A stretch of DNA of 57,476 nucleotides, from contig NZ_JASNVW010000007.1 in NCBI RefSeq assembly GCF_030186535.1, positions 1 through 57,476 on the forward strand, in the 5' to 3' direction. The stretch is from Ignisphaera cupida (GTDB taxonomy: Archaea; Thermoproteota; Thermoprotei_A; Sulfolobales; Ignisphaeraceae). Under the pieces are notes generated by a model that searched no databases, had not been told where the DNA came from, and saw only the letters and a program-made list of their open reading frames with translations. How positions within the stretch are numbered: position 1 is the stretch's first letter; every line of letters begins with the position of its first letter. The position numbers and the translations under genes were made by a program. Positions 10,878-24,323 of the stretch are shown in pieces.

Positions 10878-11534
10878 TTGGATTCTCGAAGCAATGTTTT
10901 AAATAAGATGTATAGTGGTATTGTGAATCTTGAGTCTGTTAAACAATATTGTGAAGAAGCCATTGGGTTTGGTGTAAATATTCAGGATGTTATTGGTGTT
11001 GTGACAAAAGCTCTTGAAGTTGTTGGTAAGAAGTATGAGGAGGGTGAGTACTTCTTGTCTGAACTTATAATGGCTGGTGAAATTGTTAAGGAGTGTTTTG
11101 AAGTGTTTGAATTGCATATACCTAGTAGCCAACGCCAGTTTATTGGTAGAATTGTTGTTGGAACTGTTGAGGGGGATCTTCATGATATTGGCAAAAATCT
11201 TTTCATAATGTTTTCAAAGTCTATGGGTTTTGAGGTTATTGATCTTGGTGTTGATGTACCTCCACAAAAATTTGTTGATGCAATAAAGCAGTACAACCCA
11301 GACATAGTTGCAATGTCAGCACTTATAACAACTGCGCTATCATCAATTGAGAAAACTATGAAGGCTCTTAAAGAGCATGGTCTTAGAGACAAGGTTAAGG
11401 TGATTATTGGTGGTGCTGCTGTATCGAAAGAGTTTGTAGAAAGTGTTGGTGCTGATGCTGGTGGTGTAGACGCATTTGAAGGTGCTCTCATATGTAGAAA
11501 GTGGGTTGAGGAAAAAGCAAAACAGAATAGATGA
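10878..11534 (+). CDS. Corrinoid protein of a methyltransferase system (copy 1)
   Basis: A 218-residue B12-binding protein like MtbC/MttC/MtaC. Residues 1-85 form the four-helix cap (EVVGKKYEEGEYFLSELIMAGE) and residues 88-218 the Rossmann B12 domain, with DLHDIGKN at 100-107 supplying the cobalt-ligating His102, followed by VIDLGVDVPP and the IIGGAAVSKEF loop. Such proteins carry a methyl group on cobalt between a substrate methyltransferase and an acceptor enzyme. The start is TTG. It is followed 14 bases later by a UroD-type methyltransferase gene, its likely partner. A paralogue is at 15283. Confidence 0.92.
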   Translation: MDSRSNVLNKMYSGIVNLESVKQYCEEAIGFGVNIQDVIGVVTKALEVVGKKYEEGEYFLSELIMAGEIVKECFEVFELHIPSSQRQFIGRIVVGTVEGDLHDIGKNLFIMFSKSMGFEVIDLGVDVPPQKFVDAIKQYNPDIVAMSALITTALSSIEKTMKALKEHGLRDKVKVIIGGAAVSKEFVESVGADAGGVDAFEGALICRKWVEEKAKQNR

Positions 11535-11548
11535 TTAGGTGATGGGCT

Positions 11549-12652
11549 ATGCACAAACCTCTTACACATAGAGAGCGTCTTCTAAGGGTTTTCAGTTTTC
11601 AAAGTGTTGATAGAGTACCTAACTACGAGTTTGGGTATTGGAAAGAAACAATAGATAGATGGCATAACGAGGGTCTTCCACAGCACATCAAATCTGATAA
11701 GGATGTTGAGAAATACCTTGGTCTAGAAGGTATTGAGAGTTTAGAGAGCATACCTGTAGTAGTTGGCTTGTGGCCTCCGCCAATAGAATTTGTTTTGAGG
11801 GAGGAAGACGATAAGGAGGTTGTTGCTGATGGGCTTGGAGGAATCTATGTTAGAAAGAAGTATGTTTCTGCAGTACCACACTACATCAGATTCCCAATTA
11901 GAAGTAAAGATGATTGGAAGAAGATTAAAAGGTTTCTCGATTTCGAAACACCTGGTAGAATTTCTCTAAATTGGAGCGATATTGTTGAAAAGTATAGGAA
12001 TAGGGACTACCCATTGAGAATATTTGTTGGTAGCTTAGTTGGGTGGCTAAGAGATTGGATGGGGATAGAGGGCTTGTCAAAAGCTTTTTACAGAGACCCT
12101 GACTGGGTTGAGGAAATGGTTGATACAATAGCTGATCTAGTTGTTAAAATACTAGATGTTGTGTTAAGAGATGTTGTACCTGATATGGCGTGGTTTTGGG
12201 AGGATATAGCCTATAACAAAGGCCCTCTAATCTCCCCCAAGCTCTTCGAAAAATATATTGTGCCAAGATACAAGAGAATAACAAAACTTTTAAACGCCTA
12301 TGGGGTTAAGATAGTTGTTGTTGATTGCGATGGGAATATAGAGCTTCTTGTACCTGGCTGGCTCGATGGCGGGGTAAACTGCATGTTCCCACTTGAGGCA
12401 AGGTATGTAGATCCATATAAACTCAGAAGAGAATATGGCGAAAAGATTCTTCTCATGGGTGGTGTAGACAAAATGGCTTTGATAGCAGGTGAAAAAGCTA
12501 TTGATAAAGAACTTGAGAGACTAACTCCACTGCTTGAGGAAGGTGGATACATACCAACAGTAGATCATAGAGTACCTCCAGAGGTTTCATACAAAAACTA
12601 CCTGTACTACATAGAGAGAAAAAGAGAGTGGCTGGAAAAGCACCATCCATAA
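11549..12652 (+). CDS. UroD-family methyltransferase (MtaA/CmuA-like), copy 1
   Basis: A 367-residue protein of the uroporphyrinogen-decarboxylase superfamily. It starts LTHRERLLRVFSFQSVDRVPNYE, as these proteins do, and has MAWFWEDIAYNKGPLISP and, later, LMGGVDKMAL with the C-terminal YIPTVDHRVPPEVSYKNY. In corrinoid systems such proteins move methyl groups between a substrate or coenzyme and the corrinoid protein, using a zinc site. It directly follows corrinoid protein copy 1, so methyl transfer is far likelier than haem synthesis. The methyl donor is unknown. It is intact, unlike the copy at 14005. Confidence 0.88.
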   Translation: MHKPLTHRERLLRVFSFQSVDRVPNYEFGYWKETIDRWHNEGLPQHIKSDKDVEKYLGLEGIESLESIPVVVGLWPPPIEFVLREEDDKEVVADGLGGIYVRKKYVSAVPHYIRFPIRSKDDWKKIKRFLDFETPGRISLNWSDIVEKYRNRDYPLRIFVGSLVGWLRDWMGIEGLSKAFYRDPDWVEEMVDTIADLVVKILDVVLRDVVPDMAWFWEDIAYNKGPLISPKLFEKYIVPRYKRITKLLNAYGVKIVVVDCDGNIELLVPGWLDGGVNCMFPLEARYVDPYKLRREYGEKILLMGGVDKMALIAGEKAIDKELERLTPLLEEGGYIPTVDHRVPPEVSYKNYLYYIERKREWLEKHHP

Positions 12653-12786
12653 AACCATGACAATGCTACTCAAATTCAAAAACCTGTAGCTGTACTAGTA
12701 AATTACTACAACCCCCAAACCCTCCAATTTTTGCAAACAGTGTTCATAGCTTATTAATGCTGCTAATAAGGCTGTTTTCGATTAGC

Positions 12787-12800
12787 GATAAATTTAAATG
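12787..12800 (+). promoter_or_regulatory. TATA-like promoter of the structured RNA
   Basis: GATAAATTTAAATG is a good archaeal TATA box. It predicts a transcript start near 12818-12825, just before the first stem of the GC-rich RNA candidate. No reading frame on this strand starts nearby. Confidence 0.5.
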
Positions 12801-12821
12801 CTTTTGATTGCTTCTATTTAC

Positions 12822-13022
12822 TTGATAAGAAATCCTCTGTGATCCGCTATGCGGTGAGAGGGGGTGAGAGAGTAAGAGTTGCAGATGGGAGCCTTGTGGC
12901 GTTGGGCTCGACAGGGTCCCATGAGGCTTGGGTGAAGCTGGTGAACCCAAGCCTAGGGCCAACCCCACCCACGGAGTTAAAAGTGATTGAAACCAATTAA
13001 AAGTACCGTGAGTGGGGAAACG
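12822..13022 (+). ncRNA. Candidate structured RNA with a kink-turn
   Basis: A GC-rich island in AT-rich DNA with no plausible coding frame. Stems seen directly are: CCTC (12834-12837) with GAGG (12858-12861), enclosing bulge TGT, tandem G.A pairs and CCGC/GCGG, which fits a kink-turn of the kind bound by L7Ae; ATGGGA with TCCCAT (12885-12922); the perfect 9-base GGCTTGGGT with ACCCAAGCC (12925-12953); and CCCCACCCACGG (12963-12974) with CCGTGAGTGGGG (13005-13016), 12 pairs with one G.U. A TATA box lies upstream. I see none of the universal motifs of RNase P RNA or SRP RNA, nor a tRNA. The ends are approximate and the class is unknown. Confidence 0.55.
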
Positions 13023-13097
13023 CTAGTATTAGAATAGCTGGGAATAGCTGGTAGAAGTGTTAAAGCAGAAAAAGCTTTGACTTGAGTGATGCTTTTA

Positions 13098-13502
13098 ATG
13101 AGTTTTGATAGGTATAGGGATTGGTTTGAAGAAGCTATTGATGATTTTGAAGCTGCTCAGATACTGCTTGAAATGGGTAAGTGGAGCAAAGCTTGTTTCT
13201 TTTCTCATCAAGCTGTTGAAAAAGCTTTGAAGGCCCTTTTAATCAAAAAACTTGGTGTTTATAGACATACCCACAGCGTTGCTGCTCTCATAAACGAAAT
13301 CTCATCTAGAATAGCTCTGCCCAGCGATCTTGCGAAGTTGGCTAGCAAACTTGATAGATACTACATACCCACGAGATATCCAAGTGCATGGCCATCTCTA
13401 CCTCCACACAAGCACTATTCAAGAAGTGATGCTGAGGAAGCTGTTAGAATTGCTTATGAGGTGATAAACTTTGTTAAGAGAACCATTGAGACAGATTCTT
13501 AG
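13098..13502 (+). CDS. HEPN-domain protein (toxin of a HEPN/MNT pair)
   Basis: A 134-residue helical HEPN protein. FSHQAVEKALKALLIKK is the second-helix signature and YIPTRYPSAWPSLPPH is the conserved loop of the COG2250-type HEPN group, in which Arg and nearby polar residues form the putative RNase site. In known pairs the HEPN protein is the toxin and the nucleotidyltransferase blocks it by adding AMP to a conserved Tyr; here Y in DRYYIPTRY is a candidate. The frame opens at GTG 13086 and ATG 13089, but ATG 13098 (MSFDRYRDW) fits the family start best. It overlaps the MNT gene by 32 bases. Confidence 0.88.
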   Translation: MSFDRYRDWFEEAIDDFEAAQILLEMGKWSKACFFSHQAVEKALKALLIKKLGVYRHTHSVAALINEISSRIALPSDLAKLASKLDRYYIPTRYPSAWPSLPPHKHYSRSDAEEAVRIAYEVINFVKRTIETDS

Positions 13503-13821
13503 CAAAGAAAATGTTAGAGATTTGACTGAGGAGCTAACCCAGCTACTTGAAAACATTGCAAAAACATATAAACCACTAAAGATAGTAATAACAGGATCTC
13601 TAGCTGAGGACAAGTTTGTGAGAGGGTTAAGCGATATAGATGTTCTTGTAGTAGTCAAGGAAATGAGAGAGAATATGGAGAGATTTCTCATGCACTCAAT
13701 AAAAGATGTTGATGTGGAAATAACAATAGTTTCGGAAAAAGAACTTGAAGAAGCTATTAAGAGAGGCAATGAATTCTATATACAAGCAATTGAAAAAGGC
13801 ATAGTTGTTTACACCTCCTAA
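13471..13821 (+). CDS. MNT-type minimal nucleotidyltransferase (antitoxin)
   Basis: A 116-residue DNA polymerase beta-superfamily nucleotidyltransferase. IVITGSLAEDKFVRGLSDIDVLVVV holds the GS...D-x-D motif near residues 41-58, and the third acidic residue is in DVEITIV. It overlaps the HEPN gene, the classic layout of a HEPN/MNT toxin-antitoxin module, and would act as the antitoxin. The start is TTG. The pair sits between the two corrinoid/UroD units. Confidence 0.88.
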   Translation: MLREPLRQILSKENVRDLTEELTQLLENIAKTYKPLKIVITGSLAEDKFVRGLSDIDVLVVVKEMRENMERFLMHSIKDVDVEITIVSEKELEEAIKRGNEFYIQAIEKGIVVYTS

Positions 13822-13965
13822 TTCCATTTACCGAGATCATATTTTAATCCCTTAACCAAGATTTGTATATACTTCAAACTTCTATTCTTATTCAACTCAC
13901 TTTCAAAATATTAGAGATATGGCTTTTTGGATTAAGGAGACAACTTTGCAAAACGTTAAATTTTT

Positions 13966-13988
13966 ATCTTTATGAAAAACATAAAGAT
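13966..13988. promoter_or_regulatory. Perfect inverted repeat, possible operator
   Basis: ATCTTTATG, five A's, then CATAAAGAT form a perfect 9-base palindrome 17 bases upstream of the UroD copy 2 start. It follows a TTAAATTTTTA TATA-like element and would overlie the expected transcription start, the right place for a repressor site. A short 5' hairpin in the RNA is the alternative. Confidence 0.5.
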
Positions 13989-14004
13989 AATTTAGGTGCT
14001 ATAG

Positions 14005-15270
14005 TTGATTCCACGTGAAAGAGTTGTTTTAGCTTTGAAGCATGAGGAGCCTGATAGAGTGCCAATAGACTTTGGTGCTACGCTCACTACCGGTGTTCAT
14101 GTATGTGTATATAACGAGTTGAGAAAGACTTTGAATTTATTTGTTAAACCTATTAAAGTAATTGATTTTGGTCAACAATTAGCTGAAGTTGAAGCAGAAA
14201 TTTTGAGGCTTTTCCAAGTTGATGTAATTAATATTAATAGAGTTCTTGATCCTTGTGCCCCTATAGAAATACCTTTTTTCAAGTAGAAGAAGTGGGTTCA
14301 TAGATGTGGTTTTGAAGTTGAAATACCGGATAAAATAAACATTGTTGAGGAGGAGAATAGGTATGTTGCATACTGGAATGGAAATGTCATAGGGTTTATG
14401 CCTAAGAAGGGATATTATTTTGAGGGTTTTAACAGAGTTAAACCCCCGCTTGGCGATATAAATAGTGTTAGCGATGTTAAAAACTATGATTGGAGCAGTG
14501 CCAAAATCTCTACAGAGCATCTGGAGTTTCTTAAAAAGCGTGCTGAGTGGCTATACAAAAACACGGATTACGCTCTACTATTCTTCTCAGGATATGCATA
14601 TTTGGGAGGATGCGCAATGGGTTTTCATGAGTGGGGTCAGGGGCTTAGGGGCTGGGCAAAGTGGTTAGCAGATCTAAGAGTCAGAAAGCCATTAGCCGAG
14701 GCAATACTGGATCAAATGATGGAGATTCTCAAATACAATGTAGAGAACATTGTTTCTACACTAAAAGACTATGTTCAAGTTATTGCTTTTGGTGATGATT
14801 TTGGTACTGAGGAGGGTCCTCAAATTAGTGTTGAAATTTTTAGAGAGTTTTATAAGCATAGATTTGAAGAGTTGTTTAGTATTGTTAAGAGAAGAAGTAA
14901 AATGTTTATATATTTCCATAGCTGCGGCTCTATATACCCAATAATTAAAGAGCTTATTGATGCTGGTATAGATGCTATTAACCCTGTTCAAATATCTGCT
15001 AAGGGTATGGACCCTGAGAAGCTTAAGAGGGATTATGGTGAGCAAGTAACATTCTGGGGTGGTGGCGCGGATACCCAACATGTTTTACCATTTGCAAAAC
15101 CTGATGAGGTTGTTGAGCATGTTAAGAAGTTGATCAAGATATTTGCTCCTGGCGGTGGATTCGTTTTTGCATCAGTACACAATATTCAGCCACCAACACC
15201 ACCAGAAAACATTGTTGCAATGTTTGAAACAGCTTATAAATATGGTAAATACCCAATAAGAGCTAGCTAA
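14005..15270 (+). pseudogene. UroD-family methyltransferase copy 2 with in-frame TAG
   Basis: One 421-codon frame of the UroD/MtaA superfamily, interrupted only by a TAG at 14284-14286 (PFFK-stop-KKWVHRCGFEVEIP). Before the stop is IPRERVVLALKHEEPDRVPIDFG, the family start. After it come FMPKKGYYFEG, VIAFGDDFGTEEGPQIS, FIYFHSCGSIYPIIKEL and the C-terminal FWGGGADTQHVLP, all well conserved. The frame on both sides is unchanged and there is no other lesion. It could be a fresh nonsense mutation, a sequencing error, or read-through. Pyrrolysine is possible in principle for UAG in methyltransferase systems, but TAG is an ordinary stop for many genes here. Corrinoid copy 2 follows at once. Confidence 0.8.
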
Positions 15271-15282
15271 AGGTAATTGAAG

Positions 15283-15972
15283 ATGAGCAACGTTTTGAAT
15301 TCTATTGTTGATTCCCTAGCCAATTTAGATATGGATAACATTATAAAATTTGTTAAAGAAGCTATTGAAAAATTTGATGTTAGAAGTGTTATAGATGCTC
15401 TTGCAGAGGGTATGAGAGTTGTTGGTGAAAAGTATGAAAGGGGTGAGTACTTTGTTTCGGATTTGATAGTATCTGCAGAAATATTTAATGAGGCTATGAA
15501 TATTGTTAAGCCAAAGATTTTAGAGCTTAGAAAAGAGGTTAAGCCTATTGGAAGAGTTGTTATAGGTACTGTCTATGGAGATATTCACGACATTGGAAAG
15601 AATCTTGTGAAAACATTTTTAGAGGCAAACGGTTTTGAGGTTATTGATCTTGAAGTAGATGTTCCAGTTGAGAAATTTGTTGAAGCTGTTAAGCAGTACA
15701 ACCCAGATATTGTTGGTATGAGTGCTTTACTAACATCAACAATGATTCACATGAAAGATGTTATAGATGCTCTCAAGAAAGAGGGTTTGAGAGACAAGGT
15801 GAAGATTATTGTTGGTGGAGCACCAATAACAGAGGAATTTGCAAAATCAATTGGAGCAGATGCATATGGTGAAAACGCATATAAAGCAGTGGAAATATGC
15901 AAGAAACTAGTGGAGGAGCTTAGGAAAACATGTAATACCTCGTTATACCCATGCCCTCTTTCAATCCAATAA
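15283..15972 (+). CDS. Corrinoid protein of a methyltransferase system (copy 2)
   Basis: A 229-residue paralogue of the corrinoid protein at 10878, with the same helical cap (GMRVVGEKYERGEYFVSDLI) and B12 domain. DIHDIGKN supplies the cobalt-binding His, followed by EVIDLEVDVPVEKFVEAVKQYNPDIVGMSALLTS and IIVGGAPIT. It starts 12 bases after the UroD copy 2 stop, with ATG at 15283 preferred over TTG at 15277. It should accept methyl groups from the UroD partner, if that is made. It is intact, which argues that the unit is or was recently in use. Confidence 0.92.
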   Translation: MSNVLNSIVDSLANLDMDNIIKFVKEAIEKFDVRSVIDALAEGMRVVGEKYERGEYFVSDLIVSAEIFNEAMNIVKPKILELRKEVKPIGRVVIGTVYGDIHDIGKNLVKTFLEANGFEVIDLEVDVPVEKFVEAVKQYNPDIVGMSALLTSTMIHMKDVIDALKKEGLRDKVKIIVGGAPITEEFAKSIGADAYGENAYKAVEICKKLVEELRKTCNTSLYPCPLSIQ

Positions 15973-18728: not shown

Positions 18729-18763
18729 TTTCGAGAGTTGTGTTTAGCTATAGCTACTTCAAA

Positions 18764-18773: not shown

Positions 18774-18819
18774 TTTGTGCTATAGATAATTGGCTAGGTT
18801 ATGCACAAAGGTTTTTGCA

Positions 18820-19953
18820 ATGACTGAACATGGCGAGAGGTACAGGGTTAAGTGTCTTAGTTGTGGATATGAAAAACTTGTATCTGATTTGCTTAGCATC
18901 TCTCTTTGCCCCAGGTGTGGAAGTGTTTTGGGTGTTAATCACAGTAATAATGTTTTTAGAGTTGATCTGATGGGTAGAGGGGTTTGGAGATACTCATCGC
19001 TTTTACCAAGCATACCAGAAAGGATTTCTCTTGGCGAGGGTTTAACACCTATTAGCAAATTTGGTTCTGTGTGGATTAAGAATGAGCGCTTCAACCCAAC
19101 TGGTTCCTATGCTGATAGAGCATCAGCTGTTATAATATCCTATATCAAGAGCTGTGGATGGAGCTTATTCACAAGCTTGTATGAAAGAGATTTTACAAAG
19201 TCTCTTGTTCGCTATGCCCAAAGCCAGAACATGCAATGCAGAGTTGTTGCCTTGGGAATGAATTTTATGGATATTGACGATATTCTCTTTCTAGCTTCTA
19301 AAAACATTGAAGTGTCTTTCAATATTGATAATGAGGAAAAGCCTTTTGTGCGCTACGCAAATCCTTTGACTATAGAGGGTTTAAAAACAATTGCATTTGA
19401 AATATACGAATCCGGGGTATCTGCTGAGAGAATTGTTGTTCCAAGTGAAACTGGTTTGCTTGCTTTATCAATTTTGAAGGGGTTGAATGAGCTTAGGGAA
19501 AGCGGCATAGACATTAACTACGAGATTGTGGCTGTGTCTCTAAAGAACTCTAGCCCCAGTTACCTTGCTGGTGTTAGAGATGTTAAGGTTGTTGAAATTG
19601 GGGATGGAGAAGCATATGAAGCTTTGAAGAATGTGATTAGCAAAGGATTTAACACAAAGCCCTTATCTGCTCTAAGCATTTATGTTGCTGAGAATTTTGG
19701 GAAGGCTGTAGCTGTTCTAACAATGGGATTCAAAACACTTTCAACTAGAAGTAGCAATGTTAAGAGAATGATCATAGAGGTTCTGCTTCAGGAAAAAAGA
19801 CCTTTGACAGCCTATGAGATATGGAAAACAAAACCTGTTTACACATTGAGAGCTGTGTACAAAGCTCTTAAAAGCATGGAGCTAGCAAACGAAATATGCT
19901 TTGACGTGGTGTCAAAGGGTATGAGAAAAACAAAAGTGTATAAACTTTGCTAG
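18820..19953 (+). CDS. Threonine-synthase-like pseudoenzyme with C-terminal HTH
   Basis: A PLP fold-type II protein that has lost its PLP lysine. Numbering from an upstream TTG at 18790, a zinc ribbon (CLSCGY at 22-27, CPRCG at 40-44) and LGEGLTPI precede KNERFNPTGSYADRAS, where threonine synthases have NPTGSFKDR; the Lys is Ala108 here. The middle also lacks the usual SSGN PLP-phosphate loop. The last 65 residues (MIIEVLLQEKRPLTAYEIW, then LRAVYKALKSMEL) form a winged-helix-like domain. It therefore looks like a ligand-sensing regulator made from an enzyme. It converges on nadX at 19972, so amino acid or NAD metabolism is a candidate target. I prefer ATG at 18820 for the start. Confidence 0.7.
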   Translation: MTEHGERYRVKCLSCGYEKLVSDLLSISLCPRCGSVLGVNHSNNVFRVDLMGRGVWRYSSLLPSIPERISLGEGLTPISKFGSVWIKNERFNPTGSYADRASAVIISYIKSCGWSLFTSLYERDFTKSLVRYAQSQNMQCRVVALGMNFMDIDDILFLASKNIEVSFNIDNEEKPFVRYANPLTIEGLKTIAFEIYESGVSAERIVVPSETGLLALSILKGLNELRESGIDINYEIVAVSLKNSSPSYLAGVRDVKVVEIGDGEAYEALKNVISKGFNTKPLSALSIYVAENFGKAVAVLTMGFKTLSTRSSNVKRMIIEVLLQEKRPLTAYEIWKTKPVYTLRAVYKALKSMELANEICFDVVSKGMRKTKVYKLC

Positions 19954-19971
19954 ACATGTTCATAGCTATAG

Positions 19972-20787
19972 CTATGTACCGACCTCCACCCCCTCTTCGC
20001 ACAGCTTCTTAAGAAGCGTTGCAGCGGATAGTGCTGCTAAGTAGCTTGTTCTTGGGTTTTGTGTATGAGGAACATTCTCAACTCTTATGAAAATCTTTGA
20101 TGCCTTACCCTCAACAATTATCTCATGAATGTTATGCATAGCCATTGGATCAGCATATATCTCAACATTTGGCTCTACCCCAGATGCTAAAGCAAGTGCT
20201 GCAACAACGTTTATGTTTGCTGGAAACAGCTTAACTGCTTCCGATGCCTTGCCAGAGTATATCAGTGTTTTTGTTTTCACATTCTCCACATCTACACCTA
20301 GTTTCCTAAGCGTGTTTCTGTCAAATGATCTTATATTCTTTGTTGTTTTCAGAACAACTCTATCGATTCCAGTTAGAGACAAAGCCTTTACAGCATCTAA
20401 GCCAGCTATAGCACCAGATGGTATATAGACTCTGGCTTTTGACAAACCCATAACCTTTCTTATTTCACTAATCAGCTTCTCATCAAGCAACGCACCAACA
20501 CTAAGAACAACAACATCTATCCCCATCTCAAGAACTCTAGGAACATACATTTTCACAGCCTCTTGAGAAGCAGCTTCAACAACTAGAGTTGGTGAGGCTT
20601 TTAACAAGCAATCCAAATCACTGCATATAGCAACACCCTCTAGACTATGCATAGATGAGATGCTGCTACACTTCTCAGAAGCAATATCCATTAGAGCAAC
20701 AAGCTTGCATTTCACAACACCTCTAGCAATAGCTTCGATAAGCACAGATCCTATGGCTCCACAACCAATTATTGCCACTTTCCTCAA
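19972..20787 (-). CDS. nadX: Aspartate dehydrogenase
   Basis: NAD(P)-dependent L-aspartate dehydrogenase of 271 residues. It makes iminoaspartate for quinolinate synthase in the oxygen-independent route to NAD. The Rossmann motif VAIIGCGAIGSVL starts at residue 4. VYIPSGAIAGLDAVKAL, MAMHNIHEI and PHTQNPRTSYLAALSA give the substrate-binding and catalytic His region typical of the family. It is the third gene of the nadA-nadC-nadX operon and its start overlaps the nadC stop by four bases. It replaces NadB, the oxidase used by many bacteria. Confidence 0.93.
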   Translation of the reverse strand: MRKVAIIGCGAIGSVLIEAIARGVVKCKLVALMDIASEKCSSISSMHSLEGVAICSDLDCLLKASPTLVVEAASQEAVKMYVPRVLEMGIDVVVLSVGALLDEKLISEIRKVMGLSKARVYIPSGAIAGLDAVKALSLTGIDRVVLKTTKNIRSFDRNTLRKLGVDVENVKTKTLIYSGKASEAVKLFPANINVVAALALASGVEPNVEIYADPMAMHNIHEIIVEGKASKIFIRVENVPHTQNPRTSYLAALSAATLLKKLCEEGVEVGT

Positions 20788-22622: not shown

Positions 22623-22726
22623 AACAACCGTTTAATTACAATTTAACAAAATCGCTAAAGCAAAAGCTAGTGAACGTTCCACAAAGCCTATGTCTCTAAA
22701 GCCCTTGTATAGTCTTTGGTGATTCA

Positions 22727-23725
22727 ATGAAACTTGTTGACTCGTATGAATATCTTGAAAAGCTTTACAACTTGATTTACGCGCTTTTGGAGTTGAGGGA
22801 TCGTGCTAAGGAATCTGGTATGTGGATTGAAACAGCTACTCCACTTGTTAGATATGGCTTTATATCAATGTTTAAAGGTGGTGTTATTATGGATGTTACA
22901 AATGCTGAGCAAGCTGAGATTGCTGAGGATGCTGGTGCTGTTGGTGTAATGGTTTTGGATAAGCTTCCCTACGATGTGAGAATGTCTGGTGGTGTTGCAA
23001 GAACAGCTGATTTAAAGGTTATTGAAAGTGTTATGAATGCTGTGACAATTCCTGTTTCCGCCAAGTGTAGAATTGGCCATGTTGAGGAAGCGAAGCTTCT
23101 TGAGGAAATTGGCGTTGATTTGATAGATGAAAGCGAGGTTCTTACACCAGTTGATGAAAAAGCTCACATAGATAAGTGGTTGTTTAGAACACCATTTGTT
23201 AATGGTGCTAGAAACCTTCCAGAGGCTTTGAGAAGAATATATGAGGGTGCATCAATGATTAGAACAAAGGGCGAGGCTGGCACAGGTAATGTTGCTGAAG
23301 CTGTTAAGCATATAAAGCTTGTGAATCGCGATATCTCAATGCTTAGAGGATACTATCTTAACGGTGATTACGAAGCTATATGGGTTTACTGCAAAGAGAA
23401 TAAAGTGCCATATGAACTAGCATTGTTAACAGCTAAGCTTGGTAGACTACCTGTAGTGAACTTTGCTGCTGGAGGTATTGCAACACCTGCTGATGCAGCT
23501 CTTATGAGATGGCTTGGAGCAGATGGAGTGTTTGTGGGATCTGGTATTTTCAAAAGCGGTGATCCAGCTGCTAGAGCCAAGGCAATAGTGCTTGCAACAG
23601 CATTTTACGATGACCCGGAAACAGTTGTTGAGGCTCAGAAAATGGTTTCTGAAAAGCAAAGCATGATGGGAATAGACATTAGAACACTCAAACCCGAGCA
23701 GCTTCTTCAGGTAAGGGGTGAGTAA
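22727..23725 (+). CDS. pdxS: Pyridoxal 5'-phosphate synthase subunit PdxS
   Basis: 332 residues, a TIM-barrel PLP synthase that joins ribose 5-phosphate, glyceraldehyde 3-phosphate and ammonia. The catalytic lysines are in [10 protein letters not shown] (Lys113) and [10 protein letters not shown] (Lys181). The phosphate site is [17 protein letters not shown] with VFVGSGIF. The last bases overlap pdxT by eight, which feeds it ammonia. It diverges from the nadA operon, so two cofactor pathways share this control region. Confidence 0.96.
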
Positions 23726-24323
23726 AGTGGTTTCGGTTGGGATACTTGCTTTGCAAGGGGATTTTCTAGAACATGCAGAGATATTGAAAGAGTTGAACGC
23801 AACCCCCGTGTACATTAAAAAACATAGCGACTTAGAAAAAGTTGATGCTCTTATAATACCAGGTGGAGAGTCAACAACAATTGGAAAGCTCATAGAATAC
23901 AAAAACCTTGGGCCACACATACAAAGATTTGTTGATGAGGGCAAGCCCGTGATGGGTACATGTGCAGGTGCAATAATACTGGCGAAGGAGGTTAGAGATA
24001 GGGTTGTTGGCATAACAAATCAGTTCACACTAAAGCTTATGGACATTAGCATACTGAGAAATGCATTTGGAAGACAAAGAGAATCCTTTGAAACAACTCT
24101 GTGGATAGATAGCTTAGGAGAGGTTAGAGCAGCATTCATAAGAGCACCAGCAATTTTAAACGCATGGAACAACGCAAAAATCATAGGATATGTAGAGCAT
24201 CCAGCAATAGGTAAAGCAGGTGCAGCAGCAATTCAAAACAACATGCTTGCACTAACATTCCACCCAGAAATAACTCAAGAGAAAAAGGTTTATAGCTACT
24301 TCCTCAACCTAATCAAGAAATAG
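23718..24323 (+). CDS. pdxT: PLP synthase glutaminase subunit PdxT
   Basis: 201 residues, a class I glutamine amidotransferase that passes ammonia to Pdx[14 protein letters not shown] starts the domain, [12 protein letters not shown] is the oxyanion region, [11 protein letters not shown] holds the nucleophile Cys82, and LTFHPEIT gives the His and Glu of the triad. The start is GTG inside the end of pdxS (GGTGAGTAAAG), which shows translational coupling. Confidence 0.96.

Follow-up and report, generated by a model that had tools for sequence, protein, structure and literature searches.

The protein encoded at positions 18,820 to 19,953 of the DNA stretch analysed here (the window, 57,476 nucleotides from Ignisphaera cupida) and its orthologues, termed group A, are very probably one-component, PdxR-like regulators of vitamin B6 supply that derive from a PLP enzyme of fold type II. 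The missing lysine, the fold, the winged helix, the gene neighbourhood, and the operator with its co-occurrence with the gene are results of computation. The gene and its protein comprise the following features:

18820..19953, + strand: lysine-less threonine synthase (ThrC)-like regulator with C-terminal winged helix (group A), 377 amino acids; best PDB fold matches are threonine synthases
18853..18918, + strand: N-terminal zinc ribbon, Cys12/15...30/33; cysteines kept in 44–46 of 48 orthologues
18979..19731, + strand: PALP (fold type II) domain, residues ~54–304, shorter than in ThrC (Pfam PF00291, E 4.7e-15; fold search; alignment)
19093..19119, + strand: NPTGSYADR, residues 92–100, with the Ala98 codon at 19111–19113; Schiff-base lysine replaced
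19750..19950, + strand: C-terminal winged-helix domain, residues 311–377 (structure model and fold search)

The open reading frame is intact. Translation from the ATG at 18,820 gives 377 amino acids, and an alternative upstream TTG at 18,790 would give a product of 387. Threonine synthases ranked first in PDB sequence and fold searches with the window protein, which shares the PALP fold of type II and the N-terminal zinc ribbon with these enzymes. The ribbon, already recognized in the initial annotation, was confirmed by the conservation of Cys 12, 15, 30, and 33. The PLP Schiff-base lysine of the NPTGSFKDR motif is missing, as that annotation had also stated: Ala98 aligns with the PLP lysine of the canonical ThrC of the same genome (NPTGSFKDR, G000:C4). 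Orthologues retaining the lysine, which would have refuted the initial reading, were not found, as none of the 48 aligned sequences keeps it (Ala in 26, Ser in 10, Val in 9, Met in 2, and Thr in 1). A third relative in the same genome (G000:C2, 465 amino acids) reads NPSGTFIDR and has a C-terminal winged helix too. As a separate observation, the regulator gene has the palindrome TAGCTATAGCTA on either side, each time as an exact copy (window positions 18,745–18,756 and 19,963–19,974). The whole genome holds only three copies, the third of which lies inside a coding region.

Group A was delimited in a class-wide search of 229 genomes, many of them metagenome bins, as orthologues scoring at least 226 bits; other ThrC-like proteins scored 156 bits or less. 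Carriers among the named genomes include MAGs of Desulfurococcales, Ignisphaera, Acidilobaceae, Fervidicoccus, Thermoproteus, Methanomethylicota, and others. Among 151 distinct ThrC-like proteins, 96 lacked the lysine and had a C-terminal tail, and 52 kept the lysine without a tail. The exceptions were one distant PALP protein with both lysine and tail (L044) and two proteins with neither. The association of lysine loss with the extension was correspondingly strong (Fisher p ~6e-37, kinship uncorrected). The extension was scored by length (>55 residues), and the tails inspected by eye resembled a winged helix. In a quick maximum-likelihood tree, group A was found on one side of a branch (SH-aLRT 100), the lysine-bearing enzymes likewise fell on one side (92), and a single change between lysine and non-lysine was sufficient. 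In the preferred reading, the regulator arose from a duplicated threonine synthase by loss of the PLP lysine and acquisition of a winged helix at the C-terminus. The residue at the lysine position distinguishes three regulator groups: A (A/S/V/M/T), B (I/L/V/M), and C (mostly Arg). Within group A, L080–L087 form a divergent branch that has valine at this position. They come from genomes in which pdxS was not detected and are part of a conserved cluster together with genes for a corrinoid-binding protein, EamA, and an ABC transporter.

The AlphaFold2 model of the full protein, generated with an alignment of 48 orthologues, reached a mean pLDDT of 92.7. It comprises a low-confidence linker (residues 305–310) followed by a helix-helix-helix-strand-strand arrangement of high confidence (313–377). 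The last 67 residues modelled alone reached a pLDDT of 94.3, and the top PDB matches of this lone model were winged helices, namely TFE (1q1h), PadR (5x11 and 3elk), and YodB (5hs7), with TM scores of up to 0.86 (0.82–0.86 for 1q1h, 5hs7, and 5x11). The E-values were modest (~2e-3) because the domain is small. PadR 5x11 is a structure bound to operator DNA. Model and fold search thereby bear out the earlier proposal that about 65 C-terminal residues form a winged helix, and the second outcome that would have refuted the initial reading, a C-terminus without a DNA-binding fold, did not arise either. No HTH family scored above cut-off in a Pfam search with the window protein; two paralogues reached or passed winged-helix cut-offs (PadR in L026, above; HTH_12 in L002). 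The domain shares its fold with PadR/HxlR-type winged helices, but group A stays below the Pfam cut-offs by sequence and lacks the PadR dimerization helices. A winged helix fused to a sensor-like domain is the architecture of a one-component regulator; DNA binding by the window protein is inferred.

Changes in the PLP pocket are not confined to the lysine. In 85% of group A, Asp (Asp124 in the window protein) takes the place of the Asn that faces PLP O3' in ThrC, and the first Gly of the Gly-rich phosphate loop is replaced by Glu, Lys, or Arg in most members; the ligand could therefore be another vitamer or something else. Thr301, at the position contacting the pyridine nitrogen in threonine synthases, is retained in 98% of the group A sequences, and most members also keep Ser/Thr211-Gly212 in the phosphate loop. 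Non-covalent binding of B6 is therefore plausible, though unproven. With its fold mostly preserved, the protein could in theory still be an enzyme of changed mechanism and not a sensor. This is barely credible given a catalytic position without lysine in 48 of 48 orthologues and with varying residues, the alterations around O3' and the phosphate, and the presence of a separate canonical ThrC in the same genome.

The regulator reading was further supported by the gene neighbourhood and by an operator. The proposed targets and the operator are located as follows:

22668..22683, no strand assigned: proposed operator TAGTGAACGTTCCACA, matching 13 of 16 positions of TATTGAACGTTCAATA, centred 51 bp before pdxS; the only TGAACGTTCMA site of the genome
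22727..23725, + strand: pdxS, PLP synthase subunit (Pfam PF01680)
23718..24323, + strand: pdxT, PLP synthase glutaminase (Pfam PF01174)

The 229 genomes of the class contain 52 group A loci, 37 of them in a genome that also has pdxS. At 30 of these 37, pdxS was found within 1.5 kb on the same strand, usually in the order pdxS-pdxT-A and at times as A-pdxS-pdxT. The pdxS genes adjoining group A mostly belong to a distinct, lower-scoring subtype. At the window locus, pdxS lies 2.9 kb from the group A gene with nad genes in between. The initial annotation had pointed to nadX as the adjacent gene, and it does lie convergently next to the regulator gene; this arrangement is, however, particular to the genome, the conserved neighbour being pdxS-pdxT. 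A link to nadX, nadC, and nadA was accordingly rejected, as these genes are divergent from pdxS and their linkage, seen in the window only, is not conserved in relatives. In G005 (L043, G005:C8) and at one locus of G001 (L042, G001:C49), neither pdxT nor the group A gene is intact, as if the two had been lost together. Elsewhere in the window (10,878–15,972), two related gene pairs were noted, each consisting of a B12-binding corrinoid protein and a URO-D/MtaA-like partner.

A near-perfect palindrome, TATTGAACGTTCAATA, was spotted by eye upstream of pdxS, where it abuts the archaeal promoter. As a near-match is expected often in a random 57-kb window, the weight rests on position and co-occurrence. 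In a separate test, the 10-bp core was present with at least 9 of 10 matches, 49–57 bp before the pdxS start, in 14 of 15 group A genomes, and the fifteenth has a degenerate operator at the same spacing. None of the pdxS upstream regions from 25 genomes with pdxS but without group A contained the operator (p = 6e-10). Five of the 15 genomes carry the group A gene away from pdxS, and all five have the operator. Within the genus of the window, the operator was present in G000, G002, G005, G006, and G008, and the exact site was not found in G003, G004, G009, and G010. Weak operators were observed in G083 and G030. The logo of 22 aligned sites shows the core GAACGTTC in 21–22 of 22, followed by a BRE-like AA, into which the right half of the operator extends, and a TATA-like TTAW centred ~15 bp downstream of the operator centre. 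Copies of TGAACGTTCMA elsewhere in G007, G034, G040, and G022 were dismissed as targets, being located in coding sequence or unclear contexts. Autoregulation sites were not supported either: the operator is absent before the group A gene itself at most loci, while G143 has one ~100 bp upstream.

Neighbourhood and operator also bear on the ligand. The initial annotation had suggested threonine, O-phosphohomoserine, or PLP; the data point to PLP or vitamin B6 and not to threonine, although ligand binding is inferred, and PLP as the effector is deduced from the targets only. A regulator of amino-acid genes with threonine, O-phosphohomoserine, or some other amino acid as its sensed ligand would agree with the origin of the domain from threonine synthase and with the retained NPxG, EGxKT motif, and Ser128. 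It is nevertheless very improbable, since the genes of the threonine pathway were not conserved neighbours at the loci examined, and the operator is found at pdxS and vitamin transporters, with the sole exact TGAACGTTCMA of the window genome at pdxS. The protein might instead be an accessory of PLP synthase that serves PdxS-PdxT as a PLP carrier or chaperone, for example, with its winged helix making protein contacts and another protein reading the palindrome. Winged helices can bind proteins, the gene shares an operon with pdxS-pdxT, and a lysine-less pocket might pass PLP on. That the palindrome follows the gene even where the two are unlinked, and is absent without it, makes this role improbable, as do paralogues of the same architecture that accompany transporters and not pdxST. 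In principle, the protein recognizing the operator could be a different one that occurs together with group A.

For the preferred B6 regulator, the following mechanism is proposed. Presumably dimeric, as its enzyme ancestors are, the protein would bind the palindrome, which directly precedes and partly overlaps the BRE of the promoters of pdxST and of B6-type ECF transporters. The ligand sensed by the enzyme-derived domain would most likely be PLP or a different B6 vitamer, held with no covalent Schiff base, and sensing would alter DNA binding such that pdxST and uptake genes are on if B6 is scarce and off if it is plentiful. The sign of control is inferred. The same regulator might act in the opposite sense, as a PLP-bound repressor blocking TFB/TBP at the BRE, and the overlap of the right operator half with the BRE-like AA and the nearby TATA bring this option only slightly short of an even chance. 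A position just upstream of BRE and TATA is, however, also typical of archaeal activators. Moreover, in bacteria PdxR activates pdxST in its ligand-free form, with PLP as the anti-activator (PMC5320631). Activation by the ligand-free form is slightly preferred, given this mode of action of bacterial PdxR and the position of the operator centre ~15 bp upstream of the TATA.

PdxR, a bacterial pdxST regulator of the MocR/GntR family, resembles the proposed group A system in several respects. It is a one-component protein that combines a PLP-enzyme-like domain with a winged helix, and it controls pdxST and B6 transport from a defined operator near the pdxST promoter; the co-occurrence of operator and regulator described above corresponds to this. 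In contrast, MocR proteins contain a fold-type-I aminotransferase domain and an N-terminal GntR winged helix (PMC5320631), whereas group A has the ThrC-like fold of type II, a zinc ribbon at the front, a C-terminal winged helix, and no PLP lysine. MocR regulators are not present in Archaea (PMC5320631). With ThrC, group A has in common the zinc ribbon, the PALP fold, and the NPTGS-x-x-DR and EGxKT motifs. It differs in the missing Schiff-base lysine, the changed O3' and phosphate-loop residues, a shortened second half, the added winged helix, and the gene context. On present evidence, group A is thus by the tested features neither a MocR member nor a threonine synthase, and works like PdxR. 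A literature search of incomplete coverage revealed neither a description of a group A protein nor an archaeal PLP-responsive regulator.

An exclusive partnership with pdxST was ruled out, as pdxS is missing from the genomes of 15 of the 52 group A loci; in such genomes, the operator is often found at transporters. Pattern searches of genomes with group A, allowing up to two mismatches, were used to find sites beyond pdxS. The operator was located before ECF S components in G025, G144, G105, and G166 (a perfect match in G166). G025 and G144 have no pdxS; G166 and G105 carry the operator at both pdxS and the S gene. These S components are members of Pfam PF07155, and a PDB sequence search matched them only to HmpT/PdxU2 (4hzu_S of PDB 4HZU, E 1.2e-4), a pyridoxamine ECF S component whose substrate was identified in earlier work (PMC4860826). 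The archaeal proteins are distant from HmpT and their substrate has not been shown. In G071 and G073, which also lack pdxS, the operator precedes an amino-acid-type permease (L294:1558-2928 and L296:1552-2949), a candidate B6 importer. No convincing operator target was found in G059, G061, G062, G070, and G162, all with group A and without pdxS. In G157, a gene for a DUF1177 protein (L315:1917-2864) lies ~400 bp from a site resembling the group A operator.

About half of 40 group B and C loci adjoin an ECF transporter (S, fused ATPase, and T) with an S component of the same family. Paralogues with Arg or Ile at the lysine position are thus located beside the same transporters that the operator marks in group A genomes. 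No perfect palindrome was shared upstream of the group B and C regulators. A different inverted repeat, TTCTTAAAG-N3/4-AACTTTAAGA, was found instead ~50 bp before the S gene at group C loci (L200, L202, L206, L207, L208, L210, L213, L217, and L098) and is probably the operator of the Arg-type paralogue. Group C corresponds to NCBIfam NF004170/PRK05638 'threonine synthase', a lysine-less PALP domain with a C-terminal winged helix as in group A. L207 scores 480 bits against the cut-off of 421, and the window protein, with only 112, is not a member. Group C differs from group A in the Arg at the lysine position, its neighbouring ECF transporters, the other inverted repeat, and the pocket Gly-Asn facing PLP, which all its members retain whereas group A mostly has Asp. 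The name 'threonine synthase' for PRK05638 is probably wrong.

It seems rather likely, though less certain than the role of group A alone, that Thermoproteota hold a superfamily (groups A, B, and C) of lysine-free fold-type-II regulators mis-annotated as threonine synthases. Through PLP sensing in the absence of a Schiff base, they would govern how B6 is made and taken up. Paralogues would have exchanged control over one and the same ECF transporter, with group A using GAACGTTC and group C TTCTTAAAG-N3/4-AACTTTAAGA as operator. If true, a PdxR-type circuit would have been invented independently, and, judging by the literature searched, this would be the first archaeal B6 regulon described, with a proposed regulator, operator, and targets for a domain of life in which MocR/PdxR is absent. 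B6 control in heat-loving archaea appears to be exerted by a former threonine-making enzyme, and unrelated proteins do this job in bacteria. The almost perfect association between loss of the catalytic residue and presence of the DNA-binding domain makes it a case of an enzyme turned sensor, paralleled by MocR from an unrelated PLP fold. Furthermore, the results suggest that a curated family is mis-named and point to candidate archaeal B6 transporters, and the operator renders the proposal directly testable.

The group B protein of the window genome (L046:7620-9017) is encoded near a biotin-carboxylase-like gene; since this pairing recurs in genus relatives (L229–L233), its function may differ. 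At the Ile-type loci L223, L225, L226, and L237, another common stretch with repeated TAGTGAA/ATAGTG words was observed before the S gene.
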